A stretch of 42,941 nucleotides of DNA from positions 1 to 42,941 of the IMG/VR virus record IMGVR_UViG_3300025722_000102; one strand, 5' to 3'. Shown piece after piece: positions 1,621 through 42,682 of the stretch. A model generated the notes under the pieces. It was not told the origin of the DNA. It was given only the letters and a program-made list of their open reading frames with translations, and did no database searches. Made by a program: the position numbers and the translations under genes. The stretch's first letter is position 1; every line of letters starts with the position of its first letter. The DNA is from a virus.

Positions 1621-3249
1621 TTAGTCCTTCCATGGACAATATTTACAATTGTTACCCTCTGGATCGCCACAACAGTAGCCCTGTCTCCAGTAGGATGATT
1701 CTGTTCTTTCGATTTGACCAGTATCCTCATTTAGGAATGATTTGTCTCCGGCCTCGTTTGCTATCTTGTGAGCCAAGTTTAATCTAAAGACAGGCTCTAC
1801 TGTACTTATAGCATCTATCACGTCTTTATTTTCATAACTTATTGAGGCCAATTTCTCAACCCTGCTGTCTACGTAGATACCACACAGGGCTTCGTACTCG
1901 TTGCCCCTGTAGTCTCTGAGGTATCCCACCTTTGGATTCATGACTTGAATCGGGAGCCCAGGTATCTCGTGCATGCAGGTTTCTATACCTAGATGGGGGC
2001 ACTTGCTCCACATTATGTTATTATTGAGAACGGCCCTGACTATGGCCATTGACTCCTCTGATGATGTGTTGCATAGGCCCTCGCATGTTGAGCCCGTGTT
2101 CATGCTGTAGAGGTTGATCTCCGGGTTAGCCCTAAGCATCTCGTAAAGCCTTGCACTCTGAGATGCCGGTGACTCAGACGTGAGATCGTTTGTGCATGCG
2201 TCTGTTGCGAAGGCAGCTACTGCCTGCTCCACGGTTAGTCTTTGTATCGGGGGCTTAACTCCGTCCAGTTTTGATAAGAAGAATATATCCGTTACTATCT
2301 CACCCATCTTGCGAGTGTCGAAAGCTCTGCCTCCAAGTTGGCTACGTGGCAGTATTATACTTCCACCGCTATCTATGTTTTCTGATAAGTTTTCAGGGTT
2401 TTCAAGCTCTTTCCTGACAATGGTATTGGCTTCGTCTATATCGTAGGTTCGTGTGAATACTGATGATTCCAGACCCGAAGACGTGCCATCGTGGTTTAGG
2501 GCGAAGTAGTCGTCCTGTATTATTTTATCGTCCCCCAGTACAGACTCTCCAAACATAGAAAGAGTGGTCTTCCCCGAGTTAGACTCGCCTACGAAGGCTA
2601 CTGTACGAGTAGTTCCATCCTTGTCGGATGTACTCTTCAGTGACGCATTAAGAGCTATGGACCCTTTATCTGCCATGATGTCCGACCATGACCTAATCAG
2701 TGCGGCTCGCACTTCCCCGAATGAGTCTGTTCCCATAACCCTGGTGGTGTGCTCATCATCTGAGTCTACAAGGATTAGAGTATTGGACATGAATCTGGTG
2801 AATCCACCAGAGGTTGGCTTCCTCACCCTGGGGGTACTGAATCCCGGAGTGCATATGACGGTGATCTCTGGGGCAGTAAACGTATCAGACCTGTGCATGG
2901 GATATAGCATGGCCTTGGCCATCATAGCGATGTGCGGATAATCGTCGGAGACCAGAACTCTGGCGTGTACTGCGTTCCTACTGTTGTCCGATATCCATCC
3001 ATCTATCTGTATCATGTTAGAGGATTCTATGGACTCGTCCTGGAGGTCTGAAATGACCTGTGCGAACGCACTCGTTATGGATTGGGGGCCGACGTCGCTG
3101 TCTGATATGGTGAATGTTGACTCAGGCGCTGTCCCGATAGAGTCTACATCTGTAGACATAGATCCAGACATCATGTTTACCAGGGTGAATCTGTCAGGGT
3201 TGTTTATCATCTTATCAATACTCGTTCCTTCTATGTATATTGATAGCAT
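1621..3249 (-). CDS. PEP carboxykinase-like ATPase, active-site residues altered
   Basis: The 542-residue product resembles ATP-dependent phosphoenolpyruvate carboxykinase through its middle. It has ARVLVSDDYPHIAMMAKAML near residue 96, PEITVICTPGF near 127, a P-loop GESNSGKTTLS at 221-231, a DDYF kinase-2-like motif at 246-249, and FFLSKLDGVKPP with QRLTVEQA at 323-343. By eye alignment, the Mn-binding Lys and His of PckA (in GEMKK and MHCSAN) are replaced, by GEVRAA and ALNASL. ATP binding is therefore likely but carboxykinase activity is doubtful. The C-terminus adds a Cys-rich tail (CCGDPEGNNCKYC) that may bind metal. The start lacks a clear Shine-Dalgarno; internal ATGs are possible. It ends one base before the HNH-AP2-like gene. 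Confidence 0.6.
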   Translation of the reverse strand: MLSIYIEGTSIDKMINNPDRFTLVNMMSGSMSTDVDSIGTAPESTFTISDSDVGPQSITSAFAQVISDLQDESIESSNMIQIDGWISDNSRNAVHARVLVSDDYPHIAMMAKAMLYPMHRSDTFTAPEITVICTPGFSTPRVRKPTSGGFTRFMSNTLILVDSDDEHTTRVMGTDSFGEVRAALIRSWSDIMADKGSIALNASLKSTSDKDGTTRTVAFVGESNSGKTTLSMFGESVLGDDKIIQDDYFALNHDGTSSGLESSVFTRTYDIDEANTIVRKELENPENLSENIDSGGSIILPRSQLGGRAFDTRKMGEIVTDIFFLSKLDGVKPPIQRLTVEQAVAAFATDACTNDLTSESPASQSARLYEMLRANPEINLYSMNTGSTCEGLCNTSSEESMAIVRAVLNNNIMWSKCPHLGIETCMHEIPGLPIQVMNPKVGYLRDYRGNEYEALCGIYVDSRVEKLASISYENKDVIDAISTVEPVFRLNLAHKIANEAGDKSFLNEDTGQIERTESSYWRQGYCCGDPEGNNCKYCPWKD

Positions 3250-3280: not shown

Positions 3281-3373
3281 CTATTGTAGGAAGTCCTTGA
3301 GCATGGCTAAGCCCTCGCTGTGAAGCCCCAGCTCTATCGCTGCTCTTTTATTAGTTCCAATTCTTAGATGCAA
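3281..3373 (-). CDS. Possible 30-residue peptide
   Basis: In the 101-base gap between the phosphatase and the PEPCK-like gene, an open frame starting at TTG 3373 ends at TAG 3281-3283. It reads IGTNKRAAIELGLHSEGL and then AMLKDFLQ. The composition looks protein-like and helical, but there is no Shine-Dalgarno. The first third overlaps the phosphatase 3' end in another frame. It may be a real small gene, a remnant or chance. A TACAAT hexamer on the minus strand just downstream could belong to a promoter for the PEPCK-like gene. Confidence 0.2.
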   Translation of the reverse strand: MHLRIGTNKRAAIELGLHSEGLAMLKDFLQ

Positions 3374-3896
3374 AGTAGCCCAGAGCTTTTCTCATATTTG
3401 GCTTCTTCCATGCCATGTGACCGAACCAGAATGAGATTTGCTTCTCTGCCTCTTCTACACTCTTCCCCTGTTGGGAGAGGTGGTAGATTGCTGAGGCTAG
3501 ACTAGTCCTGTCAGCTCCCCCTAGACAATGAACGTAGATGCCGTGATCCCTGTAGATTCCAAATAGGGAGTTCAATATCTGCAGTTGCTTGTCAGATGGT
3601 ACAGTGTTTGACCCCAGTGGAATGTTGAAGTAAGAGATTCCGAATGATTCGCACCACCTTCTTTCGAACTCATTCTCTACAACCTCAGACTTTCTTAGAC
3701 TAATAACAACCTTGGGTTGATACTTGGCCATAACCCTAACGAACTTCTTTTCGCTCAGCTGGGCACTTCGTATAAATTTGCCATCAAAGTAAACCCACAT
3801 GTTTCCAGTGAAGTACATTACCCCCACATAGGTTAGGAACGCTACGGCAGGAGCCATAAAGATGGCCAGTATGATTGAGCTATGAAGTAGTGACAT
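3351..3896 (-). CDS. Membrane-anchored DSP/PTP-type phosphatase
   Basis: The protein has 181 residues. A hydrophobic segment at about 8-30 should anchor it in the membrane. The body follows the bacterial dual-specificity phosphatase family: PKVVISLRKSE near 61, a conserved proline loop region, and the signature HCLGGADRTS at 123-132, with Cys124 as expected nucleophile and Arg130 as phosphate binder. It ends with the FWFGHMAWKKP type tail seen in this family. The substrate may be a phosphoprotein or a phospholipid/phosphosugar; the sequence does not decide. ATG overlaps the preceding stop (TAATG), with AGGA four bases upstream. Position in the glycan operon and its anchor suggest work at the envelope. 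Confidence 0.75.
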   Translation of the reverse strand: MSLLHSSIILAIFMAPAVAFLTYVGVMYFTGNMWVYFDGKFIRSAQLSEKKFVRVMAKYQPKVVISLRKSEVVENEFERRWCESFGISYFNIPLGSNTVPSDKQLQILNSLFGIYRDHGIYVHCLGGADRTSLASAIYHLSQQGKSVEEAEKQISFWFGHMAWKKPNMRKALGYFASKNWN

Positions 3897-4630
3897 TAGT
3901 TCCTGTTTCTGTATTCAGAAATCATACGCTGACCAGTGGGGTGCAAGCCTAGGTCTCTAGCGGACTCCATTGTGACGGACTCTGACATCCATGCAATCTC
4001 GTAGGAGTCATTGAAGAAGTCGTCGGCTAGAACCACCTCTTTGCCACGCTTAGTGGATCGAGTGATGTTCAACTGGTCACGCTTATGCCACCAGGAGAAT
4101 GAGACTACTTCCGTACAGGAGAACGCTTGGTCATACCCCTTGCTCAGCTTTGAGTCTGGATCCCTGAAGATGTCAACCTCTGTTTCGATGTCAAAATTGA
4201 AGTCAACGTCATAGTTCTCTCCAATAGTAGACTTGGCTTTTGTTACTGCTAGGTCAATCTCTTCCTGAGTGACGTTCTTTGGTCTGAAGATGATTGCATA
4301 GTCTGAGTAGAGAGGGTAGTACATGTCTCTTCTGACTACACCCTCTGAGATCGCCTCAACGATGTCTCCACCCTCGATATGGATCCAAGCATGTTTCTGG
4401 AATCCTGGAATAGCAACGTTAGACAGGTATCCGTCATCACGGTGAACGCCAATATCTCCAGGCTGAACGATCTTTGACGCTTCGTGGATCTCACCAAAGT
4501 GGACCTTGTGGTAGCGAATCGCCCAGGTAACCCATGGGAATGTTGATAATGATCTTATGTCACCAACCCAGAAGACTAGGGTCTCCCAGATGTCATGCAT
4601 CTTGTCAAGAATCTTCTTCATCGTGCTCAT
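3896..4630 (-). CDS. YiiX/YebB-like permuted NlpC/P60 hydrolase
   Basis: The product (about 244 residues) matches the circularly permuted papain-fold family. It has VQPGDIGVHRDDGYLSNVAI, then KHAWIHIEGGDIVEAI holding the probable catalytic His, a SDYAIIFRPK strand, and later SCTEVVSFSWW with the probable catalytic Cys. Family members hydrolyse or transfer acyl groups on peptides or lipids; the target here is unknown. A weakly hydrophobic N-terminal stretch (ETLVFWVGD) may associate with membrane. The start is uncertain: ATG 4630 is used, while 4621 or 4663 are alternatives. The gene overlaps DUF6165 upstream, and its stop overlaps the phosphatase start downstream, so the three are probably co-translated. 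Confidence 0.7.
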   Translation of the reverse strand: MSTMKKILDKMHDIWETLVFWVGDIRSLSTFPWVTWAIRYHKVHFGEIHEASKIVQPGDIGVHRDDGYLSNVAIPGFQKHAWIHIEGGDIVEAISEGVVRRDMYYPLYSDYAIIFRPKNVTQEEIDLAVTKAKSTIGENYDVDFNFDIETEVDIFRDPDSKLSKGYDQAFSCTEVVSFSWWHKRDQLNITRSTKRGKEVVLADDFFNDSYEIAWMSESVTMESARDLGLHPTGQRMISEYRNRN

Positions 4631-5042
4631 CTTTCTCTGGTGTCCAATCGGAAACTTCATCAAAGCTTTTTTCCTCTATGAATTGACTAGGGAATATCTT
4701 TGAAAGTTGCCCCTTCAGATCATCACGCTCGTCTTCTAGTTTTGTCTTGCTTCTGCATGCCTCTATATATGGATCTCCGAAGACCTGATTCTTCTCAGCA
4801 TCTCGAACCTCTATGTTCTTGTTCCATATGAGGTTGTTTATTGCTGATAGTCTAGTTAGAATCTCCTGAACTTCCTTGGTGTGGAAAAGGCCCGGATCAA
4901 GGGTTGATGATATTACTTGATCAAGATACAACAGCTCGTTCCAAATATTCTTAAGCTGAAAATTGCTCTTCATTGCGTTTATCTTTAGGGACAGTATTGT
5001 TATCTTGTTAAGTATATCGCCCGTAGGTGTTTCGATTTCCAT
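4605..5042 (-). CDS. DUF6165-like protein
   Basis: The product is 145 residues. The N-terminus, METETPTG-like (IETPTGDILNKITIL then SLKINAM), matches the pattern of DUF6165, whose members begin with a GE(I/L)xDKIxILxIK element and are helical. As far as I recall, these occur near glycosyltransferases and polysaccharide genes; their function is unknown. ATG 5042 is chosen because GGAG lies five bases upstream. The C-terminal third is highly charged (DERDDLKGQL, EKDEHDEEDS) and probably coiled-coil followed by an acidic tail. It lies between the KPHP transferase and the YiiX-like gene in the glycan operon. Confidence 0.6.
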   Translation of the reverse strand: MEIETPTGDILNKITILSLKINAMKSNFQLKNIWNELLYLDQVISSTLDPGLFHTKEVQEILTRLSAINNLIWNKNIEVRDAEKNQVFGDPYIEACRSKTKLEDERDDLKGQLSKIFPSQFIEEKSFDEVSDWTPEKDEHDEEDS

Positions 5043-5089
5043 GACTGCTCCAATCTCTATGAACATTATACGAATCTATGTGTCAGTCC

Positions 5090-6130
5090 TTACTTTATAG
5101 CGTTTAGCCACCTTTTTGTGGTCTGTGAGTCTATCTTGAAGGTATTGTTAATCCAATTGTCATATTCAACAGGGTCATAGGCTCCACTTACCTTATCAGA
5201 TAGCTTGCAAGGGGGCATGTTAGTAATCTTTAGAAACTCAGCGTCTTGACTATCCTCCATTTCGGAGGAATATAGGAACGATTCAACACCCATGGATCTT
5301 AATGCTAGATGGCTGCTTATGGAGCTTTGTGCGAGTACCACATCATGCTCCTTGTAAATGTCCTCTGGTATTTTCCATCTATTTATCTCTTTATACTTTA
5401 TATTGAGACTGCTACACATGCTCCTGACTGAACTCCTATAGTCTATACTGTTTTCAGCGGGGTGGGGCTTGACTGCTATCTCAGATATAGCCATGCCATT
5501 CTCAACAGCCATGTATATATTTAGAATCATCTCTTCTATAAGATTCTTTGCCGCATTGCTCCTGAAGATGTCACATGATGTTATCATCAGAACCCTACCA
5601 CCGCTCTCGTAACTTCCATTGAACGGTCTGAACGAGGGATCGCCAGCTAACACCACGCTACTCTCGGTCTTGGACTGGCTACTCAATACTGAAAACTCTG
5701 GCTCTGACCTAGCGATTAAAACATGTGCATGTGGAATATATTCACCCGGTGTATTATTGTATCCAACTGGATACCTATCTCCACTGAAGTAGACCATCTC
5801 ACCCAGGAGGCACACATTGCCTTTGGTGTCTTCTAGGTTCATATTCATATACTCTCTGTAATGTCTATTTCCAGAGTACAGCATATGACTCTTAGTGCCT
5901 ATCATTAGGGGTAGTACGAATGACTCTTCTTTATGAATTATGTCGTCAAACATCTCAGTAACGCTCTTGCGATTTACCTCTGGGTCTATCTTGTTAAACC
6001 TCAGCACTCTATCTATAGAATCGTTCCTTTGCGAATTGCGTGTATAAATAGAATAATCGCCAACAGACTTAATGATTGGGGAGAAAACACGAGCGTGTTG
6101 CTCTGTGGCTATAAAAAAGTTGGGCTTCAT
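5090..6130 (-). CDS. GT-B glycosyltransferase with KPHP motif
   Basis: The product is about 346 residues. Around residues 215-260 it has IAVKPHPAENSIDYRS, followed by a DVVLAQSSISSHLALRSMGV segment. A KPHP motif followed by a Ser-rich S/T loop is typical of bacterial GT-B enzymes that use CMP-linked acidic sugars (sialyl- and polysialyltransferases, Kps-type capsule enzymes) or CDP-polyols. With NeuA, NeuB and KdsB-like genes in the same operon, transfer of a CMP-activated nonulosonate or Kdo-like sugar is a reasonable inference. ATG 6130 overlaps the preceding TGA; GTG 6139 is an alternative. No signal peptide is seen, so action is expected in the cytosol. Confidence 0.6.
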   Translation of the reverse strand: MKPNFFIATEQHARVFSPIIKSVGDYSIYTRNSQRNDSIDRVLRFNKIDPEVNRKSVTEMFDDIIHKEESFVLPLMIGTKSHMLYSGNRHYREYMNMNLEDTKGNVCLLGEMVYFSGDRYPVGYNNTPGEYIPHAHVLIARSEPEFSVLSSQSKTESSVVLAGDPSFRPFNGSYESGGRVLMITSCDIFRSNAAKNLIEEMILNIYMAVENGMAISEIAVKPHPAENSIDYRSSVRSMCSSLNIKYKEINRWKIPEDIYKEHDVVLAQSSISSHLALRSMGVESFLYSSEMEDSQDAEFLKITNMPPCKLSDKVSGAYDPVEYDNWINNTFKIDSQTTKRWLNAIK

Positions 6131-6531
6131 TCTGGCCACATGCCCATCTCACCTAGGCAGAACTCCCAGTTGTTCATGAATCTTACAGCCTTATCGTCCA
6201 AATAGTATTTAGCACGGGGCTTTACCGCTGTGATCTCGCTAATGTACTCCGCCATGCCGTACTTATCTAGCCACAGCCAAAGCTCATCTATGCATGACTC
6301 TGGACGATCCTCACGAGCCCTGCATGTGAATAGTATGATAGTATAGCGTTTACTGATTGTCCTCAGCGCCTCAAGTGCTCCATCTACTGGTGGCATGGTT
6401 GGGAAAACAGCGTCGCCACCTTTCTGTGCTATAACCCCGTCATAGTCTATGCATACAGTAGAGTCTATCTGACTTCGACATAGTTTTTCAAACTCTTCGT
6501 GCTCTTCGGAGTTAACACCTCGGTCGCTCAT
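6127..6531 (-). CDS. HAD-family phosphatase
   Basis: The product is 134 residues. It has the HAD motif I VCIDYDGVIA with the two Asp residues of the nucleophile and acid/base. Motif II is IILFTCRA. KPRAKYYLDDKA supplies the Lys and the final acidic pair. Short cap-less HAD enzymes of this size dephosphorylate small metabolites; KdsC, the Kdo-8-P phosphatase, is one relative in fold. Given its place among sugar-activation genes, a sugar-phosphate substrate is likely but unproven. ATG 6531 is chosen: GGAG is seven bases upstream and the start overlaps the preceding stop as ATGA. An upstream TTG is rejected. Confidence 0.7.
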   Translation of the reverse strand: MSDRGVNSEEHEEFEKLCRSQIDSTVCIDYDGVIAQKGGDAVFPTMPPVDGALEALRTISKRYTIILFTCRAREDRPESCIDELWLWLDKYGMAEYISEITAVKPRAKYYLDDKAVRFMNNWEFCLGEMGMWPE

Positions 6532-7346
6532 TTGCTTTCTCCATCTAAATAGTACAGCCAAAAGTTTCTATTTATCGAGTCTGTCAGGTATGAATCCTTT
6601 GAGCAGACTTCCAGCTCTACGCCTACCTCGGTACACCACTCATGGAACAGGCTTAATCCTTGTTTTACCAACTCATTCTCACCTTTGAATAAAAGTCCAA
6701 CGCTTCCATCTATGGTAGATTTGTAAATATCTTTAGAGTCGTAGAAGTGAGAGAAGCTTTTACTGTTGTCATCCATGCTTGATGGTGCTTGGTCAACCCC
6801 TATTAAGCTTATCTTGCTCGCCCCGGTGTGTATCGCAGTGAATAGTGTGGTCTCGAACAGGGTTCCTGGTCCCCACATGCGTCTTGTTCCCGTCTTATCG
6901 AAGGTATTGTTATCGAAGTCGCAGCTTCCACAAAGAGTTTGACTGTTTCCTCCACCTTTTATCTTAAAGAAGATGTCATTACTATACCCACTCCATAGCC
7001 CCGACTCAATTGCTTTCTGTGCCGAGCTTGAACTTGCCAGCACTATTGTCTCGGGTGTATCATATCCTGTGAAGTTGTTACAGTTGTAGTGATGGATGTC
7101 TACGTTTCCATCCATGTATCCGAAAGCTTGTTTGACAGTTAGCACTGGCTTGTCGGCAAGTTCTCTGATTAGTATGTCAGAGTCAATCCCAGCTAGAGAT
7201 GGGCCACATGATACAATGTAGACTGTCTCGCCTTCGTACATGTCTTTCATTATATCTAACTTACTCTGATCATTAAAGTCATGACCTCGGCTTACGTCTA
7301 TGAATGCCGCTGCTCTATCTTTAATTGGAATATTAGTCCAGTTCAT
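6528..7346 (-). CDS. Sialyltransferase/DUF115-like glycosyltransferase
   Basis: The product is 272 residues. It has ETVYIVSCGPSLAGID at 40-55, resembling the GNGPSL nucleotide-sugar loop of GT42 sialyltransferases and DUF115/Maf-type proteins. A central RRMWGPGTLFETTLFTAIHTG then KISLIGVDQA matches the middle of that fold, and ELEVCSKDSYL the last strand. GT42 enzymes transfer CMP-sialic acid and Maf proteins transfer pseudaminic acid to flagellin, so both known cases use nonulosonates. This fits the NeuA- and NeuB-like neighbours. The acceptor is unknown. The start is ATG 7346, overlapping the upstream stop as ATGA and preceded by GGGGGGAAG. Confidence 0.6.
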   Translation of the reverse strand: MNWTNIPIKDRAAAFIDVSRGHDFNDQSKLDIMKDMYEGETVYIVSCGPSLAGIDSDILIRELADKPVLTVKQAFGYMDGNVDIHHYNCNNFTGYDTPETIVLASSSSAQKAIESGLWSGYSNDIFFKIKGGGNSQTLCGSCDFDNNTFDKTGTRRMWGPGTLFETTLFTAIHTGASKISLIGVDQAPSSMDDNSKSFSHFYDSKDIYKSTIDGSVGLLFKGENELVKQGLSLFHEWCTEVGVELEVCSKDSYLTDSINRNFWLYYLDGESK

Positions 7347-7987
7347 CTTCCCCCCGGATCGTTTACTGAGTATTCTTCAACTGTAATATTCTTGCGGTCA
7401 ATTACGTACACTACATCTTGTTTATGTTTGAGTGATACCACATCATCCTGGTGCATGTTTGAGAATATGCCACGAATACACTTACTGACCATCTCGTGTG
7501 TGACAACCACCATGTTCCCACCGCAGTTGTCCTTAAGGAAATCAAGAGTCCTTCTATGTATGTCTAGATAGCACTCGCCTCCTGGAAACCTGTTCCTCCA
7601 CTTGTCAGCCTTACGATGAGCAGCCTCTTCTGGCATTAGATCGTCCCAGTCGGCAATTATCTTGCCCTGTGCGATACCCATGTTTCCCTCCATAAGCCTC
7701 TTATCCTGCTCTATTGATGAACACTGCATGGTTGTGTCCCCATGTTCCAGCATTATCCTTGCAGTCTGCATAGTCCTGTCCTGCGGGGAGGCTACGAATC
7801 TTACATGAGTTAGTCCCATATTCTCTATCAGGCGTGAGACGGCCCAGCCAAATGTCGCTGCCTGACCTCTTCCACGTCCGGTTAGGTCTGAATTCATGTG
7901 ACCTTGGCACATCCCCTTCTTATTCCACTCGCTCTGTCCGTGTCTGACAAGAATAAGTTTTCCACTGAATATGTTTTTAGCTTCCAT
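7343..7987 (-). CDS. Histidine phosphatase (phosphoglycerate-mutase-like)
   Basis: The product is 214 residues and opens with KLILVRHGQSEWNKKG, the RHG catalytic signature of the histidine phosphatase superfamily. The downstream FVASPQDRTMQTARIM and VVVTHEMVSK segments supply the second Arg and His. The family includes mutases and sugar- or nucleotide-phosphate phosphatases. In this operon, next to a NeuB-like synthase, it probably acts on a phosphorylated sugar or keto-acid intermediate, though a general phosphatase is possible. The gene overlaps the NeuB-like stop by 11 bases and ends in an ATGA overlap with the sialyltransferase-like gene. Confidence 0.75.
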   Translation of the reverse strand: MEAKNIFSGKLILVRHGQSEWNKKGMCQGHMNSDLTGRGRGQAATFGWAVSRLIENMGLTHVRFVASPQDRTMQTARIMLEHGDTTMQCSSIEQDKRLMEGNMGIAQGKIIADWDDLMPEEAAHRKADKWRNRFPGGECYLDIHRRTLDFLKDNCGGNMVVVTHEMVSKCIRGIFSNMHQDDVVSLKHKQDVVYVIDRKNITVEEYSVNDPGGR

Positions 7988-8807
7988 AGTCTAGGTCATC
8001 CAGAAATCTAGACTCTCCACTGCTGGTGGCTGAGTCACGGGAGTCCTCTTTCAAAACTTTTGATACGCTGTCTATCATCTCACGATACTCCCTGGGCAGC
8101 AAGGCGCACTCAAGGTGGTGAATTTTAAAATCTCTAGAAAGAGAAAAGTGTCTTTCTATCATGGTTGCTCCGCTTAGAGCTGCTATAATAGATGCGGCAT
8201 AGCCAACCTCGTGGCCAGAGTACCCGATAGACACACGACTAGATGCGCTCACTTCCCCTAGCATTCTGCGAACATACCTACAGTTGGATAATCCATCCGG
8301 AGTAGGGTATAGCGATACGCAGTGGAGTATGTGAGCCTCGATGCCAGCTTCTTCGATCTTCTTAAGTGCTGACTTAAAGAACTCGTGAGATTTCCCTCCC
8401 ATGGAGTATACCATTGGGATGTCCATATCGCCACAGGCCTTAACAACTAGGTCGAACAGATCTGACTTGGCTGCATCCATTGATGCGATCTTTAGAGCGG
8501 CGGGCCCAAACCCACTTACGAAATCTAGAGAAGCTTGGTCATGCACGGTGGAGAACCAGTCGATGCCAACTGCCTTACAGTGGTCAACTATCTCTTGCAC
8601 GTCACCCCTGTTGATCTCCAAGGACCTTCTGTAAGCCTTGAAGTTCATATTGCGCCACATCTTCCCATCGTCTGGATAATAGGCATCAACGTCCTTGAAC
8701 TTAAACTTAACCATATTGGCACCAGAGTCCTTTGCGGCAGTTATCATTGCCTTAAGAACATTGGTAGATCCAAGGTGGTTGATGGTCATTTCTGCGACAT
8801 AGATCAT
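7977..8807 (-). CDS. NeuB-like nonulosonate synthase
   Basis: The product is 276 residues and follows the NeuB TIM barrel: IYVAEMTINHLGS, ANMVKFKFKDVDAYYP, WFSTVHDQASLDFV, AALKIAS, AHILHCVSLYPTP, RVSIGYSGHEVGYAASI and TMIERHFSLSRD. NeuB enzymes condense phosphoenolpyruvate with a hexosamine derivative to give a nine-carbon nonulosonic acid. It is shorter than the usual 340-350 residues because the C-terminal SAF (antifreeze-like) lid domain is missing, so the substrate may differ from sialic acid. ATG 8807 lies one base after the preceding stop, with GGAAG upstream. It sits between the RraA-like and histidine-phosphatase genes. Confidence 0.75.
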   Translation of the reverse strand: MIYVAEMTINHLGSTNVLKAMITAAKDSGANMVKFKFKDVDAYYPDDGKMWRNMNFKAYRRSLEINRGDVQEIVDHCKAVGIDWFSTVHDQASLDFVSGFGPAALKIASMDAAKSDLFDLVVKACGDMDIPMVYSMGGKSHEFFKSALKKIEEAGIEAHILHCVSLYPTPDGLSNCRYVRRMLGEVSASSRVSIGYSGHEVGYAASIIAALSGATMIERHFSLSRDFKIHHLECALLPREYREMIDSVSKVLKEDSRDSATSSGESRFLDDLDYGS

Positions 8808-8808
8808 G

Positions 8809-9480
8809 TTACCATCTTCCAAGCTTCTTCAAGATTTCGTCTAAATCCTCGTCCTCGTCAATCATGTCCCTAATCTTCCCCTCACGAGCGACGACCCCGA
8901 GGTACTTCTTGCGCCAACCTTTTTTGTATATCTCACCAGGGATCACTAGTGCCCCATCGAGATCCATCGCAACGTAGTCCCCCATCATTATCTCCACGTC
9001 ATCTATCCTAATGTCACACATGTAGTCGACCAGTGCCCAATGTCCAATAGCGTCGATAGGAACGCAGCCGTTAGAGAAGACTGGGTATTTAATTCTATCT
9101 ATCACGGTCATGTCTCTGGTATATCCATCTGTAAGCATGCCCACGGACCCCATCTTCTGGTAAATCATTGACGTTATATCCCCAGTATGAGCAACCTCCA
9201 TGTCCCCCGCTTCAAGACATACGATTGGCTTTAGCTTACGAAACAGATCCTGCTGCTCACGGTAGATACTCATTCTTATGTCATCTAGTTTCTTGTAGGC
9301 TGGAGGATCAGACTCAGGTTCTGTAACCACCCTGCCCCTTGTGGTAAACACTGGAGAAACGATTAGTCCATTCCTTTTTCCACGGTATCCAGCTGATGGC
9401 TTGATGTTAACAAACTGATCATTGGCCTTGGGACCCATAATATCTCTCAGTGCGTCATATGCTGCGCCAAGATAGGACAT
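8809..9480 (-). CDS. RraA/HMG-aldolase-like protein
   Basis: The product is 223 residues with the RraA-like fold signature. It has a MGSVGMLTDGYTRDM segment holding the GxxTDGxxRD motif, then VFSNGCVPIDAIGH, VEIMMGDYVAMDLDGALVIP and a C-terminal helix. This superfamily includes RraA (an RNase E inhibitor) and 4-hydroxy-4-methyl-2-oxoglutarate/oxaloacetate aldolases, which handle pyruvate. The G..R and D residues used for metal and substrate binding are present, so the aldolase or decarboxylase branch is likely. Inside a nonulosonate-type operon it may make or break a pyruvate-derived keto acid. Its start overlaps the NeuA-like stop (TAATG), preceded by AAGG. Confidence 0.65.
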   Translation of the reverse strand: MSYLGAAYDALRDIMGPKANDQFVNIKPSAGYRGKRNGLIVSPVFTTRGRVVTEPESDPPAYKKLDDIRMSIYREQQDLFRKLKPIVCLEAGDMEVAHTGDITSMIYQKMGSVGMLTDGYTRDMTVIDRIKYPVFSNGCVPIDAIGHWALVDYMCDIRIDDVEIMMGDYVAMDLDGALVIPGEIYKKGWRKKYLGVVAREGKIRDMIDEDEDLDEILKKLGRW

Positions 9481-10148
9481 TAGCTACCTTCTTGCCTAAT
9501 AAGTATTGCCTCAACGATGGCCAGATCTTCTGGGTCGTCGATGTCCAATGATTCAGTCTTTGAAACCTCTACCAATAGAGGGTTCTTCCCCACTCGTGTT
9601 CCCCTGTTTACAAATGACTCAACTGTTACGCCATATAGGCCATGAGTCTCCATCATCTTCTTGTCCAAGTCTTGAGAGTTAGGCAGATCCTCAATAGTGA
9701 AGTTCTCAGGAGACCCATTGTTCCAAAAGTATTCCTGAACAGGAACCACTGTCATGAACGAATCGTGTCCAGTTGAATTCTTCCATTCTCTAATAACCCT
9801 ATCAATAGTCTCCGCTGTAATAAGAGGAGAGGTGGAGAAGGTTTGACAGATGACATCTACTTCTTCAATTGTGTGCAGTGCCCATGTTAGTAGGTCATTT
9901 GCGTTGCAGTCGTTTGTAGCAAGTTCTGCTGGTCTATCAATCAGGCGAAGACCCTTGCTGAGTAGGTCGCTAACTTCTGACTTGATATCATCGCTCTCTG
10001 TATCCAGGTACACGTAGTCAACCTCTTTACATAGGAGTGCCTTTTCACATGCCCTGCGAACAAGAGTTTTTCCCCCTACTAAGGTGAGGTTTTTATTCCT
10101 CACCCTCTCGGACGTGCCCTTGGCCGGTATGGTAAGTGCAACTTTCAT
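9480..10148 (-). CDS. NeuA-like acylneuraminate cytidylyltransferase
   Basis: The product is 222 residues. It opens with ALTIPAKGTSERVRNKNL, the CTP-binding loop of CMP-N-acylneuraminate synthetases, followed by GKTLVRRACEKAL. Further on are VYLDTESDDI, the RPAELATNDCNANDLLTWAL region and CQTFSTSPLI. It ends with LDIDDPEDLAIVEAIL, the usual metal-binding end of the family. The expected reaction is CTP plus a nonulosonic acid to CMP-sugar and pyrophosphate. It lies directly between the KdsB-type fusion and RraA-like genes with stop/start overlap on both sides, so it is part of one pathway. The exact sugar cannot be read from sequence. Confidence 0.75.
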   Translation of the reverse strand: MKVALTIPAKGTSERVRNKNLTLVGGKTLVRRACEKALLCKEVDYVYLDTESDDIKSEVSDLLSKGLRLIDRPAELATNDCNANDLLTWALHTIEEVDVICQTFSTSPLITAETIDRVIREWKNSTGHDSFMTVVPVQEYFWNNGSPENFTIEDLPNSQDLDKKMMETHGLYGVTVESFVNRGTRVGKNPLLVEVSKTESLDIDDPEDLAIVEAILIRQEGS

Positions 10149-11872
10149 TATTGGGCGTCCAGTCTGTTAGACACTGCGATAGCATCTTCTGGGTAATCTA
10201 CGGCAATGGTATCCCCATCGACCTCTATGCATATTACGTTTATACCAAGCTCTAGAAATCTTATTATCTCAATGTCCTCAGCCCACTCATTGTAGCCCTT
10301 CACCTGAACAGAGGAGAACCTCTCCAGCTCTTCTTTTGAGAAGCCATATATACAAACCTGTTTTTTTGACTTAACAGCTGATCCATCTTTTGTACCAGGG
10401 ATTGCTACTCTTGATGCATATAGTAGACTACCATTCTCCGCAACAACCATCTTGGGAACACTGGGGTCTTCCGGATTTTCATCACATGACATGTCGGCCA
10501 CACAGTTAATAACTGAGTCCCTATTGCTTAGCTTTGCAGATATAACTCTCTTTACGTCTTCTGGGTTAAGCATAGGCTCGTCTCCCTGTATGTTTATGAA
10601 GTAGTCTGCGTCTATTTCAAGTGCGGCCTCAGCAACTCGATCTGTTCCGGTTAGACAGGTGTCTGAGGTCATTATACACCTGTACCCGTACTCCTCAACA
10701 ACTCTCTGAATTTCCATGTTCTCAGTAGCGATGTAAACATCTTCTTTCCCACCCATAGCCTCTGCTGCGATGTCAGCTACTCTTATTATCATAGGTTTTC
10801 CAGAAATATCAACCAGAGGCTTCCCTGGAAACCTAGATGACTTGTATCTTGCGGGAATGATACACGCAACCCTTGGGGCCAGCCTGGAATCTTTAATTGC
10901 CTTCTGCATTGCATCATAGTCAAAAGAATCTGTTATAGAAAGGTTGGTCAGGATGGTCTGAATCTGACTTGGACTGTACCCTTCTTCCTGCAGTCTCTGA
11001 ACGTATGTTGGATGTATTTTCATTGCTCCTGAAATAAGATACGATTCAGAGTACCCCCATTTTCCATTGGAGAAATGCTTTGATATTACACCCTGGAGCC
11101 CATTATGTCTACCAGACCCTTCGTACTGAAATTCACACAGGGTTAGCATCTGCTCAGTCTTAGTGTTGCCTACTCCCCTACCCATCCCTGTGACTGTAGA
11201 GTCTACGTATTTGCACCCAGAATTGATTGCTGCTAAGCTATTAGCAAAGGCAAGTCCCATATTATCATGAAAATGAGCTCCTACACTGCATTCGGTTACA
11301 GACTCAACCAGGGTTTCAACCATTTCAGGAAGGCAGCTTCCAAATGAATCTGCGAAGTACAGTGCCTCAATGTCTAAAACTTGCAAACTAGATACAATGC
11401 TATCTCTTAGGTCTCTATTGTGTGCCAACAAATGACATTGCATTATGTTCACCATGCACTTATATCCAAGCTTTCTTATGATCTCTACCAAGGCAGCTGC
11501 TCTTTTTGCCTCCGAGGGTGATGGCTTGATTGCTATCCTGCAAATAGAGAAGGGCGATTCAGATGAATAACGAACACATTCCAGAACCCTGGACTCCACT
11601 ACATTACCATCTGCGTCTGAAAACTCTTTTAGATCTAACATGAATGATAACTCAACATTTTCACATAGATCCCCCACTACAGATGATACAAATCCATCGT
11701 TTGTCTTCCTCCACTTGCCCCCTTTTAGGGGAGACTTGTATCCCAATTCAACAACGTCAATACCTGACCCTATCAGTGATTTAACTGTATCACGAACCAT
11801 CTCACGACTGAATTCCCACTCAGTCCAGTATCCGCCATCCCTTAGAGTGCAGTCTAGGAGCTTAAAACTCAT
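10148..11872 (-). CDS. Aldolase (DRE-TIM) fused to CMP-Kdo synthetase
   Basis: The 574-residue product carries two enzymes. Residues 1-325 are a DRE-TIM metallolyase: LLDCTLRDGGYWTEW at the start, ALYFADSFGSCLPEMV, and GAHFHDNMGLAFANSLAA with the metal-binding His pair. This is the HMG-CoA lyase/4-hydroxy-2-oxovalerate aldolase group. Residues 332-574 are KdsB-like: CIIPARYKSSRFPGKPLVDI, MSSDT-type GTDRVAEAA, FINIQGDEPML and DTIAVDYPEDA. KdsB makes CMP-Kdo from CTP and Kdo. The fusion implies that a keto-acid sugar made by the aldolase is passed on for activation. I see no stop or frameshift between the halves. It follows the GT gene without a gap. Confidence 0.75.
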   Translation of the reverse strand: MSFKLLDCTLRDGGYWTEWEFSREMVRDTVKSLIGSGIDVVELGYKSPLKGGKWRKTNDGFVSSVVGDLCENVELSFMLDLKEFSDADGNVVESRVLECVRYSSESPFSICRIAIKPSPSEAKRAAALVEIIRKLGYKCMVNIMQCHLLAHNRDLRDSIVSSLQVLDIEALYFADSFGSCLPEMVETLVESVTECSVGAHFHDNMGLAFANSLAAINSGCKYVDSTVTGMGRGVGNTKTEQMLTLCEFQYEGSGRHNGLQGVISKHFSNGKWGYSESYLISGAMKIHPTYVQRLQEEGYSPSQIQTILTNLSITDSFDYDAMQKAIKDSRLAPRVACIIPARYKSSRFPGKPLVDISGKPMIIRVADIAAEAMGGKEDVYIATENMEIQRVVEEYGYRCIMTSDTCLTGTDRVAEAALEIDADYFINIQGDEPMLNPEDVKRVISAKLSNRDSVINCVADMSCDENPEDPSVPKMVVAENGSLLYASRVAIPGTKDGSAVKSKKQVCIYGFSKEELERFSSVQVKGYNEWAEDIEIIRFLELGINVICIEVDGDTIAVDYPEDAIAVSNRLDAQ

Positions 11873-12874
11873 CTATTCGCTTTCTGAAGATCTAGCTCCA
11901 TCCTTGATCGCCTTCTGCGCTTTCTCGTTCAATTCCTTCTGCGCTTTCTCAGCCCTGTTCATGTTAGCCTCATCCTGAACTTTCTTGACTTCCATTCTTT
12001 GATTGTAGCTGGCAACCATATTTTCATGTGAAGAGAAGTGGTAGGCTGGTGTCATAACATCCATAAAGATTTTATCAAGCCCCATCTCCGAGAACTGCTC
12101 GCACAGGGAGATCCATTCTACATCGTGATCTATGCCATTGATCTCTGCAGATAGGCTCATGCTGGAGAAAACTGCTCCGTCCACGAAACCCTTTGCATTG
12201 AACGCACAGATGCCGTTGAATGTCGAGTACAGTTTAAGGTGTGTGACCTGCGGCTGCATAACAAGTGAGTACAGTAGCTCGTGCGGTGTACAGTTCCACC
12301 AAGTGTCACTCTTCTGGCCTCGTGTTGCCCACTTGTCATAAAGCTCCTTTTCTGGCCTCTGCACGTCTCCATGCAGAGAGTAGACCGATAGCACGTCCGC
12401 ATCGCCTAGCAGTACTGGTGCTAGGATCTTTGGAATCGTTTGAGCCTCCATGTGGTAGTCCATGTCTAGCCAGATGATAGCTGCGTAATCGGACATGTCC
12501 TCTACATTGTCTAGGCAGTTGTTTCTGATTAGTGCCATTTTGTCGATTCTGTCCTTGCTTACTACTGAGTCGTAAGCCTCAAGGTCCAGCTTCTCTGAAA
12601 CTATACGGCAGTCTACGTTATCCGGAGACTTCTCGAAAACATTGTTGAATGCCTCAACTGTTCCGTCAGATGAGTCGTTTTCGTAGATTAGCACTTCAAA
12701 GCTTATTGAGCCCATCATTTTTAGATCCTCAAACAATGCCTCCATCTGTATCTCTACGATGCTCTCGCAATCTCTGGCTACGGCTAGAATTAGAGTTGAT
12801 GTATTTTCTGGCATAACTCTTTGGGAGCCATCCTCGATGACACCCTCTTCTTTGATCTCTTCATTGTCTGACAT
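11873..12874 (-). CDS. Glycosyltransferase, GT-A (CAP59/GT69-like)
   Basis: The product is 333 residues. After an acidic 20-residue head comes STLILAVARDCESIVE, EVLIYENDSSDGTVEAF, MALIRNNCLDNV and IIWLDMDYHMEA. The last contains the DxD metal and nucleotide-sugar motif (DMD). The arrangement resembles cryptococcal CAP59-type/GT69 mannosyltransferases and related bacterial GT-A enzymes. NGICAFNAKGF and DVEWISLCEQF fit the acceptor side. The last 50 residues (NRAEKAQKELNEKAQKA) form a charged coiled coil. No signal or membrane segment is seen. It is the second gene of the glycan operon, two bases after the large glycosyltransferase. Confidence 0.65.
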   Translation of the reverse strand: MSDNEEIKEEGVIEDGSQRVMPENTSTLILAVARDCESIVEIQMEALFEDLKMMGSISFEVLIYENDSSDGTVEAFNNVFEKSPDNVDCRIVSEKLDLEAYDSVVSKDRIDKMALIRNNCLDNVEDMSDYAAIIWLDMDYHMEAQTIPKILAPVLLGDADVLSVYSLHGDVQRPEKELYDKWATRGQKSDTWWNCTPHELLYSLVMQPQVTHLKLYSTFNGICAFNAKGFVDGAVFSSMSLSAEINGIDHDVEWISLCEQFSEMGLDKIFMDVMTPAYHFSSHENMVASYNQRMEVKKVQDEANMNRAEKAQKELNEKAQKAIKDGARSSESE

Positions 12875-12875
12875 C

Positions 12876-14975
12876 TTAACTACTCTCTTTCGCCACTGGT
12901 GGCTTGTCTAGGTTGAAACTAATAGGCTTGTGGCTATCGACGATGTATATGGAGCCGCCTCTTATGTGGTTGCGGATGGCCTCTGCGCCATCTGTCTGCG
13001 CTACTCTTACAGTATAGCATCCTTCTGGAGTTGAGTAGTCTATCGCAGCTACACGCTTGCTGTGCTCAAGGAACACTGAAGCCTCTTTAGCCCCTGAGGT
13101 GATCATTAGAGCTGAGACCGGAGATGATCCCTGTGAGGGGTGGATAAGTCTTTCCTCAAACAGTGGCTTCAATGTGTCGATCCCGCCTTCTCTTACCGAA
13201 AGCTTTAGAATGCTGAAGTCACTTTTAGTTTCCCCATGCAAGTACAGCTCACTAAGAATATGCTGTGGATCAATGTTGTATACGAATTCTCCACTCTTGA
13301 CAATGAAGACCCATCCTCCGTTAGAGGCTTCCTTTAGCTTTTCAGTCTGGTCGTCTCCTTGCTCAATGATGACAGATTCTACCTTGCAGTTGTTTTTAAG
13401 ATTCCATTTTGTTCCCTCGTCCTCGGATACGTTGCCGTTTGACAAGATGGCGAACGTTAGACTTGGTATGTCCCATCCGGAACGATCTTTCAGTGCTGCC
13501 TGCATTATTGCTGCTTCCCACTTCTTACCAGCGAGATTCCAACTGTAGTTGCCAATGGCCAGGGAGCGGCCTTCTTCTCCCAGAGTCGATGCGTAGAAGT
13601 CGCTTGACAGAACTTTGTTCATGTTCTCTACTAGACTGTTTACACTAAAGATGGCCCTATTTTGCATAGTCTCTGCCTCTGTGTACATAGTTTCAACCTT
13701 GATCGGGAGTGCTCCTCCGTTGCGGTTCTTCTCGTACATTGAAGAGTAGTCTGTGCATGTCACTGGTACGCCGCAGGACTTAGCCTCTGTCGCTGGCATC
13801 CCGTCACCTTCGCAAATTGACGCTTGAACATACAGGTCCATTAGGTTGTAAATCTCATTAAGGGCCTCTTCGTCATAGCCCTTATTGGTGTTTGGCGTAG
13901 TCACCGTGTTCTTGCCGCATTTGGCACATGGTCTGGAGTTGAATCCCCATGTTGAAACACCCATAGCGTTGCAGGAGTGACAGATGTGGGAGAAAAGCAC
14001 TCGATGCTCTAGACCATTCCTAAACACCGACTCGGGGATGTCGAATCCAACGTCTGGAATCCCCGTATGGAGAAGAAGTGCCGATAGCTCTCCAGTTTCT
14101 GGATACTTGTCTAGGAACTTCCCATACGAGTCGATGAGTCTGCTGAACAGCTTTCTGGGCTGGTTCCTCATAACGGATCCGACAATCTTTACTTCTGGAC
14201 TGAGACCCCACTTCAACTTCACCTCGGACTTGTCCAATGGTTTGAACACCGCTGGGTCTGTGCCTGCCTGAGCAACTCTAGCTACTTCCAGCGGCACTAT
14301 TCCGTGGCGCTTTGCAAGATCTGTTCTGGACTGATCCTCCATTACCTTTTTCCCGAAGTGGCTGTACGCCATAAGAGTGTCGGCCTTGCCATAGTCCTTT
14401 AGCCACTCCCATCTCTGGGGGTAGGAGTCTACGCAAGCCATCCAGATCACGTGACATTTTTTTGTTATGTTGTGATCGACTACGAATCTGTCCATCCAGT
14501 GGTCTCTATGGATTAAAACCACGTCCGGCTGAAAGTCTGTCATTACACTCTGGTACTTGAAAAGTCCGAATTGGTTATCTCTGTAGTTAGCTTGGTAAGC
14601 CTTCTGCTGCTCCTCGCCTATTGGCATGTTTCCGTAGAATTTCCAGGGAACTGAACTTACCCTGGGGTCAATGTCTCCCCCGTAGGAGCCTAGCTCTGCT
14701 ACTGTCATATTTGGAATGGCATGGAGGTGTGTTAGAACCTCTCTTGTGTAAGTTGAAAAACCCGTATGAAGATAAGAAGCCTCTGATACGAATAGTACCT
14801 TGATCTCCTCGGCATCTTTGTTTACTCCGTTGTCTATCAGGGCCTGTAAGTCATCAAGGCTGTCATGGGATGAATCAAACTTGGCACCTTTGATATTGTC
14901 ACGAATCTGTCCACCAGTCCTCAGGCTCACTTTCTGAACCTTGTCAGGGCTGCGCTTTTTACGCTTCTTAGCCAT
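12876..14975 (-). CDS. Large GT4-like glycosyltransferase with zinc ribbon
   Basis: The 699-residue product begins with a basic stretch (AKKRKKRSPDKVQK). A GT-B fold follows: VLFVSEASYLHTGFSTYTRE, a VVLIHRDHWMDR region, and VGSVMRNQPRKLFSRLIDSY opening the second Rossmann domain. ICEGDGMPATEAKSCGVPV is the GT4 EX7E-type donor motif. Inserted between these, near residues 335-360, are CHSCNAMG and PCAKCGKN, a four-Cys zinc ribbon that is unusual in GT4 enzymes. The last 170 residues resemble a degraded GT-A-like region. It is the first gene of the operon: AAGGAG lies five bases before ATG, with a candidate promoter upstream. Confidence 0.65.
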   Translation of the reverse strand: MAKKRKKRSPDKVQKVSLRTGGQIRDNIKGAKFDSSHDSLDDLQALIDNGVNKDAEEIKVLFVSEASYLHTGFSTYTREVLTHLHAIPNMTVAELGSYGGDIDPRVSSVPWKFYGNMPIGEEQQKAYQANYRDNQFGLFKYQSVMTDFQPDVVLIHRDHWMDRFVVDHNITKKCHVIWMACVDSYPQRWEWLKDYGKADTLMAYSHFGKKVMEDQSRTDLAKRHGIVPLEVARVAQAGTDPAVFKPLDKSEVKLKWGLSPEVKIVGSVMRNQPRKLFSRLIDSYGKFLDKYPETGELSALLLHTGIPDVGFDIPESVFRNGLEHRVLFSHICHSCNAMGVSTWGFNSRPCAKCGKNTVTTPNTNKGYDEEALNEIYNLMDLYVQASICEGDGMPATEAKSCGVPVTCTDYSSMYEKNRNGGALPIKVETMYTEAETMQNRAIFSVNSLVENMNKVLSSDFYASTLGEEGRSLAIGNYSWNLAGKKWEAAIMQAALKDRSGWDIPSLTFAILSNGNVSEDEGTKWNLKNNCKVESVIIEQGDDQTEKLKEASNGGWVFIVKSGEFVYNIDPQHILSELYLHGETKSDFSILKLSVREGGIDTLKPLFEERLIHPSQGSSPVSALMITSGAKEASVFLEHSKRVAAIDYSTPEGCYTVRVAQTDGAEAIRNHIRGGSIYIVDSHKPISFNLDKPPVAKESS

Positions 14976-33315: not shown

Positions 33316-33822
33316 TTAAAAGTTTAGTAGTTGCTCGCTAACGATTGAATCTTCTTTTACAGGTCCGACATATCTGCTGTCATATGACAGTCTCCTATTG
33401 TCTCCTGCGATGAAGTACTCACCATCTAATAGCATTATGTTGGTCTCATTTTGTACGTCTATACTGCTATATTTAAATTTTTGTGAAATTAAATCTGGCT
33501 CCCCATTTACCTCTAAGTAGTTACCACTAATGAAGATACGATCATCCGGAATTCCTATAACTCGTTTAACCCAGTATTCTCCATCTTTGATTGGTGACCT
33601 TACTGTAACTATGTCTCCACGGTTTATAGGAGTATAAGAGCAGGTTAGGGAGTGACTGCCATCTGACAATGTTGGCATCATGGATACGCCTGAGATCTTC
33701 CATACCTTCAGGCCTCCTGCGATAAACAGCGCTTGCAGTATTAAGAGAAATCCTGCGGCTATTAGTACGCATTTTGCCATGTATCTTGCAAACTTTAGCG
33801 ACTTAGTTATCAATGATATCAT
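33316..33822 (-). CDS. Type I signal peptidase
   Basis: The product is 168 residues. A membrane anchor (LIAAGFLLILQALFIAGG) precedes SGVSMMPTL with the catalytic Ser47, and GEYWVKRVIGIPDD with the general-base Lys86. GEYFIAGDNRRLSYDSRYVG is the conserved GDN..S.DSR box. This is a complete S26/LepB-type enzyme, small in size as in Gram-positive SipS. It removes signal peptides at the outer face of the membrane. ATG 33822 is chosen for AAAGGG six bases upstream. It overlaps the purA stop by 20 bases. It is rare in phages as far as I know. Confidence 0.8.
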   Translation of the reverse strand: MISLITKSLKFARYMAKCVLIAAGFLLILQALFIAGGLKVWKISGVSMMPTLSDGSHSLTCSYTPINRGDIVTVRSPIKDGEYWVKRVIGIPDDRIFISGNYLEVNGEPDLISQKFKYSSIDVQNETNIMLLDGEYFIAGDNRRLSYDSRYVGPVKEDSIVSEQLLNF

Positions 33823-34996
33823 GCTGTACCCTTTCATCTATGTTTATTTCGGTCGTACTCTCTCGGTCTGGTCCAAATGACACGATGCTGACCGGAACTC
33901 CAACAAATTCTTCTAGCTTTGCTATGAATTCATGGTAGGATCCGCCGTCTTTCCATCCTGGCCATTTTTCCCAGATGGGCTCACACACATTCCATTGTTC
34001 GCCATATGGGAATTCGAGAGTGTCTGTTATCTCTGACGCTCCTATAGTGTACCCCACACAGACGGGGATTGCATCTAGGTTGCTTAGGATGTCCATTTTA
34101 GTTAGAGCGATCTCTGTGACTCCACCAATCTCAACTGCATATTTGAGTGCCATGACATCAAGCCATCCACACTTCCGTGGTCGCCCTGTGGTGGCACCGA
34201 ACTCTCCACCTAGTGTTCTGACAGCCTCGTCGTCTTCTTCCGTCATGGCGGACGTGAAGGGCCCTGCGCCTACTCTGGTGGAGTATGGCTTAGATACGCC
34301 GATCACCCTATCTAGCTTGCCGAAGGAGAATCCTGCGCCTGTTCCGACTGTGTGGGCTGTGCAGTTAGAGGATGTGACATAAGGGTATTGACCCATATCA
34401 ACGTCTAGTAGGACTCCTTGAGCCCCCTCGAAGAAGATTCTCTTGCCTTCCCCGTGCAGTCTATTAATCATTACTTCAGTGTTGACTATTCTTCCTCTGA
34501 AGGTTGCTGCAAATACGGGGAATCTAGCTAGGACATCCTGAGCTGCCATTCCGGCTGTTACGCCAGTCCTGTTGGCCTTCGACTCGTATGTTGGCCCAAT
34601 TCCGGTCTTCGTCGTGCCGAGCATCTGAGTGCGCTCCCTGTACTCGTCCACCTCAAGGGCTTCTTCTGTTACTAGATGCGCCTTGTTGGATATGAAGATT
34701 CTGCTGACTAGGCTTCCTGCTGTCTCTCCCAGGAGTGATGCAACTTGATGGATCTCCTCAACCAATGCGGTGGGATTTATAACCATTCCGTTTCCTAGAA
34801 TGCAGACTATTTCAGGGTTTACTATTCCAACGGGAAGCATGTGGGTGACGATCTTCTCTCCGTTGTGCCAAATCGTATGGCCAGCGTTTCCGCCACCCTG
34901 AAACCTGCACGATACATCATAATTGTCAGACAAGAAGTGCGAGATCTTACCCTTGCCCTCATCGCCCCACTGTAGTCCTATTAGACATGTCGCCAC
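33803..34996 (-). CDS. purA: Adenylosuccinate synthetase, short form
   Basis: The product is 397 residues. GTG 34996 is chosen for AAAGGGGG just upstream, and because it follows the preceding stop by 11 bases. The GTP loop and catalytic Asp are in LQWGDEGKGK (Asp12). GGGNAGHT, TTKTGIGPTYESKANR, FFEGAQGVLLDVD, SKPYSTRVGAGPF and GATTGRPRKCGWLD follow, with both aspartate-binding Arg residues kept. It joins IMP and aspartate with GTP. Phage PurZ enzymes replace the Asp by Ser; here Asp is intact, so PurA chemistry is expected. The enzyme is shorter than E. coli PurA because a helical region after residue 130 is reduced. Confidence 0.85.
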   Translation of the reverse strand: MATCLIGLQWGDEGKGKISHFLSDNYDVSCRFQGGGNAGHTIWHNGEKIVTHMLPVGIVNPEIVCILGNGMVINPTALVEEIHQVASLLGETAGSLVSRIFISNKAHLVTEEALEVDEYRERTQMLGTTKTGIGPTYESKANRTGVTAGMAAQDVLARFPVFAATFRGRIVNTEVMINRLHGEGKRIFFEGAQGVLLDVDMGQYPYVTSSNCTAHTVGTGAGFSFGKLDRVIGVSKPYSTRVGAGPFTSAMTEEDDEAVRTLGGEFGATTGRPRKCGWLDVMALKYAVEIGGVTEIALTKMDILSNLDAIPVCVGYTIGASEITDTLEFPYGEQWNVCEPIWEKWPGWKDGGSYHEFIAKLEEFVGVPVSIVSFGPDRESTTEINIDERVQHDIIDN

Positions 34997-35007
34997 GTCA
35001 TCCCCCT

Positions 35008-35232
35008 TTATACTGGTAGATCGTCTGATCCATGGACCTTTGTTCTTCGAGCAACTATTTGATTGCTTCCCTGTCCATACTTCCATACGCTATTCTCGGA
35101 CTGAACACGCCCTTGAACCTCTGGTCGGCGCACTGCGAGGTAGTCCTCAAGTGCTGCCTTGGATGAAAATAGAAGGTCGTTGACTTGCTTAGGATCTTTT
35201 ACAATCCACAGGTACTTATATGAAATTGACAT
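35008..35232 (-). CDS. Small hypothetical protein
   Basis: The product is 74 residues and not recognised. It reads SISYKYLWIVKDPKQVNDLL, then AALEDYLAVRRPEVQGRVQS, and ends VARRTKVHGSDDLPV. Start ATG 35232 is preferred over 35244 because GGAG lies six bases upstream. It is mildly basic with no membrane segment or Cys pairs. It sits between the sigma-like gene and purA, 11 bases before the purA start, so it may be co-translated. Confidence 0.65.
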   Translation of the reverse strand: MSISYKYLWIVKDPKQVNDLLFSSKAALEDYLAVRRPEVQGRVQSENSVWKYGQGSNQIVARRTKVHGSDDLPV

Positions 35233-41525: not shown

Positions 41526-41550
41526 TTTTTTCCTATTCCTTATGAAATGA

Positions 41551-41580
41551 AATATATCACGTTATAACAGTTTTGTGCAA
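41551..41580 (-). promoter_or_regulatory. Candidate promoter before the MoxR-like gene
   Basis: On the minus strand, TTGCAC (41580-41575) and TATATT (41556-41551) are 18 bases apart in an AT-rich spacer between the VWA gene and the AAA gene. The -35 matches consensus only partly. This 55-base gap is the longest between genes in the right-hand block, which supports a start site here. Confidence 0.35.
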
Positions 41581-42678: not shown

Positions 42679-42682
42679 GATA

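Follow-up and report, generated by a model that had tools for sequence, protein, structure and literature searches.

Bacterial surfaces are shaped by sugar acids activated with cytidine monophosphate (CMP), for which synthases dependent on phosphoenolpyruvate (PEP) are the textbook route. IMG/VR virus record IMGVR_UViG_3300025722_000102 (42,941 bases, the whole of which is termed the window here) raises the question of whether a virus can run such a pathway itself, and by which route. Its candidate is an operon of 13 minus-strand genes at 3351–14975, joined by overlaps of 1–59 base pairs (bp), gaps of 0–1 bp and a single 23-bp gap (Table 1). Taken together, the evidence makes it likely that, within the host cytoplasm, the phage makes, CMP-activates and transfers one or two 3-deoxy-2-keto sugar acids. 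More tentatively, a virus-specific bifunctional enzyme encoded in this operon may build and CMP-activate such an acid from pyruvate rather than PEP, which would be an undescribed route to ulosonic acids, used by phages to glycosylate themselves or their hosts.

The aldolase-cytidylyltransferase fusion

An initial annotation, made from the sequence alone, had listed an HMGL-type aldolase and a KdsB-like cytidylyltransferase as two proteins; both domains are present, but as halves of one open reading frame (ORF), the operon's most telling feature. The HMGL half passes PF00682 (83.8 bits, cut-off 29) and keeps its metal-ligand residues, with R11, D12, H200, H202 and other positions invariant across 14 viral fusions. 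The KdsB half passes the NCBIfam subfamily PRK13368 (265.4 against 255 bits) and fails TIGR00466, the equivalog for true 3-deoxy-D-manno-octulosonic acid (Kdo) specificity (128.3 against 155.2).

A scan of viral contigs recovered the same order, HMGL then KdsB in a single ORF, in 35 further environmental contigs, several of which are near-copies, so that independent fusions number fewer than 35. T4-type clamp loader genes accompany 14 of 26 representative fusion loci, and the carriers therefore belong mostly to another phage group. In a quick aldolase tree, in which some long branches leave fine detail uncertain, the HMGL-KdsB proteins form one viral clade (Shimodaira–Hasegawa-like approximate likelihood ratio test, SH-aLRT, 97) that includes one apparently split copy; the window aldolase half is mostly 36–50% identical to viral relatives, compared with 28–36% to bacterial ones. 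In five other viral loci (L166, L167, L174, L176 and L161) the aldolase is fused to a NeuA-type enzyme instead, four times as NeuA-HMGL and once as HMGL-NeuA, giving three architectures in all. No cytidylyltransferase fusion occurs among 81 bacterial aldolase ORFs, approximately 991 bacterial genomes (398 and 296 from two phyla and 297 from a single order) contain separate genes only, and the two halves are found together in none of 50,697 phage records. As far as tested, and within the samples searched, the fusion is virus-specific. A literature search of partial coverage found neither an HMGL-cytidylyltransferase pathway nor a phage HMGL-KdsB protein.

These distributions bear on the possibility that the HMGL domain is a degradative enzyme resembling 4-hydroxy-2-oxovalerate aldolase, with its fusion to KdsB incidental. 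Kinship to that family is real (TIGR03217, 4.8e-24), but at 85.1 bits the match falls far short of the equivalog cut-off of 286, and both the three viral fusion architectures and the cytidylyltransferase genes adjoining the bacterial relatives make this reading very improbable.

In bacteria, the aldolase often directly adjoins a KdsB or NeuA gene and its homologues sit within capsule or exopolysaccharide clusters, with a HAD gene next to the aldolase-KdsB module in Leisingera. In long bacterial aldolases (~507–644 amino acids, aa), the C terminus is extended by ~200 aa that lack a strong Pfam match. Compared as a profile, this extension resembles the viral MptE-like family with 93% probability (E 2.4e-7), compared with 68% for a GT29 family and low values for HAD, KdsB (1.2%) and several more cassette families (~1% or less); a second profile comparison with the MptE-like family gave 85% (E 6.6e-6), and an MptE-like match below threshold appears in one member (2.6e-05). 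The extension is probably MptE-like, and a cryptic cytidylyltransferase in its place was rejected on the same profile probabilities. There appears to have been a domain swap, in which bacteria combine HMGL-MptE with separate KdsB or NeuA, and phages combine HMGL-KdsB with separate MptE and HAD. Such a swap argues strongly that aldolase, CMP-activation and MptE-like functions belong to one pathway. Viral linkage has a similar composition: among 25 representative loci with the aldolase, 18 have an MptE-like gene, 16 a HAD gene and eight a GT29 sialyltransferase-family gene. DUF6165-like homologues occur in the vicinity of the viral fusions and of an HMGL-KdsB pair in Marinobacter (L070).

Table 1. 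Genes of the operon, in order of transcription (identities are to homologues in sister phage L197; numbers after family names are E-values)
Feature	Position	Strand	Evidence
GT4-type glycosyltransferase, 699 aa, first gene of operon	12876..14975	-	Glycos_transf_1 5.9e-08; L197 46%
CAP59/GT-A-like glycosyltransferase, 333 aa	11873..12874	-	CAP59_mtransfer PF11735 9.4e-13; L197 39%
HMGL-type pyruvate aldolase (~aa 1-310) fused to KdsB-type cytidylyltransferase (~aa 334-572), 574 aa	10148..11872	-	HMGL-like 1.7e-23; CTP_transf_3 7.6e-37; PRK13368 4e-79
NeuA/PseF-type CMP-ulosonate synthetase, 222 aa	9480..10148	-	CTP_transf_3 1.1e-16; PDB NeuA 9t4z 8.3e-12; L197 63%
RraA/HMG-CHA-type class II aldolase or oxaloacetate decarboxylase, 223 aa	8809..9480	-	RraA-like 4.9e-13; D-X20-R-D at D101; L197 55%
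NeuB-type PEP-dependent synthase, barrel without SAF, 281 aa	7977..8822	-	NeuB 1.2e-40; catalytic Lys/His align to NeuB structures; L197 65%
Histidine phosphatase, 214 aa	7343..7987	-	His_Phos_1 6.6e-34; RHG and second His motifs; L197 40%
MptE/DUF115-like protein, putative CMP-sugar transferase, 272 aa	6528..7346	-	MptE-like 9.8e-06, sub-threshold; fold model
Small HAD phosphatase, 144 aa, putative KdsC-like role	6127..6561	-	phrog_1238 1.3e-12; DYDG motif
Unclassified KPHP-motif protein, 349 aa, possible GT-B transferase	5090..6139	-	no family match
DUF6165-like protein, 153 aa	4605..5066	-	PF19662 0.0073; homologues near viral fusions
Possible C92-type papain-like protein, 255 aa, cassette member	3896..4663	-	PF05708 0.078, weak; L197 same-cassette homologue 51%
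Dual-specificity-type phosphatase, last tightly linked gene	3351..3896	-	PTP-NADK 4.1e-08

A second module shared with a sister phage

The tight operon of the initial annotation is confirmed and reaches further than described, to ~3351, and Pfam and NCBIfam searches bear out most of its gene names, including the NeuB-like synthase, the NeuA-like cytidylyltransferase, the RraA-like aldolase, the histidine phosphatase and the two further glycosyltransferases. The HAD phosphatase is recognised by PHROG 1238 and its DYDG motif only. The proposed theme of making, activating and transferring an ulosonic acid was upheld by domain calls, catalytic motifs and comparison, but its casting as a single pathway gave way to two separable modules. 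The comparison behind this is with L197, a sister phage that shares the polymerase (67%) and tail genes and was the sole other viral carrier found in a search with RraA. At the same position L197 carries a cassette reading GT4-CAP59-MptE-NeuA-RraA-NeuB-HAD-C92; since it has NeuA-RraA-NeuB without the fusion, the window holds two modules rather than one.

NeuB passes PF03102 (140 against 22.1 bits), and its Glu, Lys and His residues match those of NeuB structures in alignment; it scores below the equivalog cut-offs for N-acetylneuraminate and pseudaminic acid synthases (TIGR03569, 131 against 399.65; TIGR03586, 113 against 340.25). The NeuA-type enzyme passes CTP_transf_3 (61.7 against 22.6) and misses the PseF equivalog (60 against 205.7). 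RraA passes PF03737 (50 against 24.5 bits) and has, as in L197, a D-X20-R-D motif, which we take to be one of the catalytic motifs of RraA relatives, and which alone is weak evidence as it arises in 15% of shuffles. Most RraA relatives carry one of two metal-binding/catalytic motifs and are likely class II pyruvate aldolases, also capable of oxaloacetate decarboxylation (PMC5065237).

Between the window and L197, NeuA, RraA and NeuB are 58–64% identical over full alignments, with saturated synonymous sites and nonsynonymous divergence (dN) of 0.30–0.39, compared with 0.24 for the polymerase; judged from these alignments, all three are under purifying selection. The MptE-like protein and histidine phosphatase diverge faster. 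At 1e-45, a NeuB profile found nothing in one phylum, an uninformative result.

It is unlikely, on this evidence, that the fusion module alone makes the product and that NeuB-RraA-NeuA is a remnant or has another use. Most viral relatives do have the fusion module without these three genes, and a NeuB lacking the antifreeze-like (SAF) domain is unusual; however, the genes are intact, their catalytic residues are kept, they are conserved nearly like the polymerase, and L197 shows the opposite pattern.

The two-module scheme takes gene content, motifs, fusion, conservation and linkage as observed, and proposes from them the substrates, the order of steps, the transferase role and the acceptor. 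In module A (the fusion with the HAD and MptE-like proteins), the HMGL half would condense pyruvate with a host-supplied aldehyde, the HAD enzyme would then strip phosphate, and the KdsB half would convert the product to a CMP-sugar. In module B (NeuB-RraA-NeuA with the histidine phosphatase), NeuB would condense PEP with a host-supplied aldose, the histidine phosphatase would take off the phosphate and NeuA would yield a second CMP-sugar, with RraA supplying or recycling pyruvate or acting as a further aldolase. The aldose precursor must be host-derived; no precursor enzyme was found in the operon. A PEPCK_ATP-like protein with a C-terminal DUF5522 (1621–3249) was weighed as a source of PEP for NeuB and set aside; its P-loop is present, and its other substrate-site motifs look degraded, as judged by eye.

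Several points weigh against this scheme. The 281-aa NeuB has no SAF domain among its Pfam matches (its L197 homologue is equally short), a domain that in characterised synthases contributes to holding the sugar. The HMGL aldolase group has no known substrate; the part given to RraA in the pathway is a guess, and RraA was sought in the bacterial aldolase module and not found. The operon yielded no aldose or amino-sugar precursor enzyme, the MptE-like protein scores under its Pfam cut-off with a transferase role drawn from weak fold matches, and modules A and B could serve unrelated products.

Transfer, acceptor and genomic setting

The protein first described as GT42/DUF115-like reaches 25.9 bits against PF01973 (cut-off 34.6). 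A model built from 18 homologues (predicted local distance difference test, pLDDT, 83.5; predicted template-modelling score, pTM, 0.87) best matches archaeal MptE/HPPK structures in the PDB (E 3.9e-05); weak matches to GT29 sialyltransferases (E 0.008–0.05) and to 5mu5, a Maf glycosyltransferase (E 0.065), come after these. Related viral cassettes include GT29 sialyltransferase scores of 52.9, 51.5 and 19.8 bits (Pfam cut-off 23). Given these fold matches and GT29 genes, CMP-sugar transfer fits the cassette, and the MptE-like protein may be its transferase. GT29-family genes lie at L147:2697-3341 and L143:7804-8418 in fusion-bearing viral cassettes.

The label of KPHP GT-B enzyme could not be confirmed, as the protein has no Pfam, NCBIfam, PHROG or PDB sequence match and its structure model is unusable (pLDDT 34); a conserved ~315-aa family of viral loci was tested as a relative and is not related.

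The activated sugar would be placed by the MptE-like protein, and perhaps by the KPHP one, on a glycan that the GT4 and CAP59 enzymes assemble. No lipid carrier, flippase or exporter gene was seen in the operon, so the acceptor is most likely cytoplasmic; with precursor enzymes also missing, the original statement that all steps are covered was too strong. The acceptor may be a virion protein, with host surface-glycan precursors a more tentative candidate. It is possible, rather than probable, that the enzymes cap host surface polysaccharide or lipopolysaccharide with ulosonic acid and so block further phage adsorption. The bacterial homologues in capsule and exopolysaccharide clusters, and the abundance of glycosyltransferases, epimerases and GT29 enzymes in the viral relatives, are consistent with this, but no polymerase, flippase or export gene was seen in the operon, host export machinery would be needed, and no surface change is evident from the data.

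Three longer viral contigs match the window at 99–100% identity, and the record is probably a fragment of a longer genome. Past window position 1, these near-identical contigs extend to a module on the opposite strand that encodes a tape measure protein of 1666 aa, and the record is therefore a real long-tailed phage, siphovirus-like in type. In the tail region, a 944-aa protein with a concanavalin-like lectin domain (L015:11114-13948; PF13385 2.2e-06) is a possible receptor-binding protein. A near-identical contig also encodes a phosphomannomutase-like HAD protein (L013:8089-8859; PF03332 7.6e-22), which might supply sugar metabolism, with no link to the operon established, and a thymidylate synthase (L013:12123-13025). 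The remaining window genes are for replication (DNA polymerase III alpha, SSB, DnaB, primase and UvsX). At 33803–35086, PHROG calls PurZ, a 2-aminoadenylosuccinate synthetase; the protein retains the WGDEGKGK motif of PurA and is probably an ordinary adenylosuccinate synthetase, leaving a Z-genome reading unsupported. A VWA/DUF2201 protein beside an AAA ATPase (40428–42708) resembles a MoxR-VWA pair.

Relation to known systems

Viruses may have an undescribed way of making unusual sugars and attaching them. If so, a pyruvate-aldolase route fused to its activating enzyme would open a new path to such sugars and offer a bifunctional biocatalyst ready for use, and both the glycosylation of virions or hosts with ulosonic acids by phages and the products of the bacterial aldolase-KdsB-HAD capsule module would become testable.

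Module A resembles the KdsA/KdsC/KdsB pathway to CMP-Kdo in its predicted C–C bond formation to a 3-deoxy-2-keto acid, in its HAD phosphatase and in its KdsB-type activation with cytidine triphosphate; it differs in being phage-borne and in replacing PEP-dependent KdsA with a pyruvate-type HMGL aldolase, fused to KdsB. Module B shares with the sialic, legionaminic and pseudaminic acid pathways a NeuB-type synthase and a NeuA/PseF-type cytidylyltransferase in one operon. However, the phage NeuB lacks SAF and lies far under the equivalog cut-offs, an RraA-type aldolase stands between NeuB and NeuA, and amino-sugar precursor enzymes are not seen. The MptE-like protein may be akin to Maf/DUF115 flagellin glycosyltransferases and GT29/GT42 sialyltransferases through its domain, weak fold matches (Maf 5mu5, GT29) and the GT29 genes of related viral cassettes, but is a single 272-aa domain with a sub-threshold Pfam score. 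The bacterial HMGL aldolase-KdsB-HAD module (in Leisingera, Idiomarina and Alteromonas, for example) has the same aldolase and KdsB subtype (the phage KdsB half is 49% identical to Leisingera KdsB), in some cases with an MptE-like gene nearby. There, a separate KdsB accompanies an aldolase with the additional, probably MptE-like domain, whereas the phage fuses KdsB to the aldolase and encodes MptE on its own.

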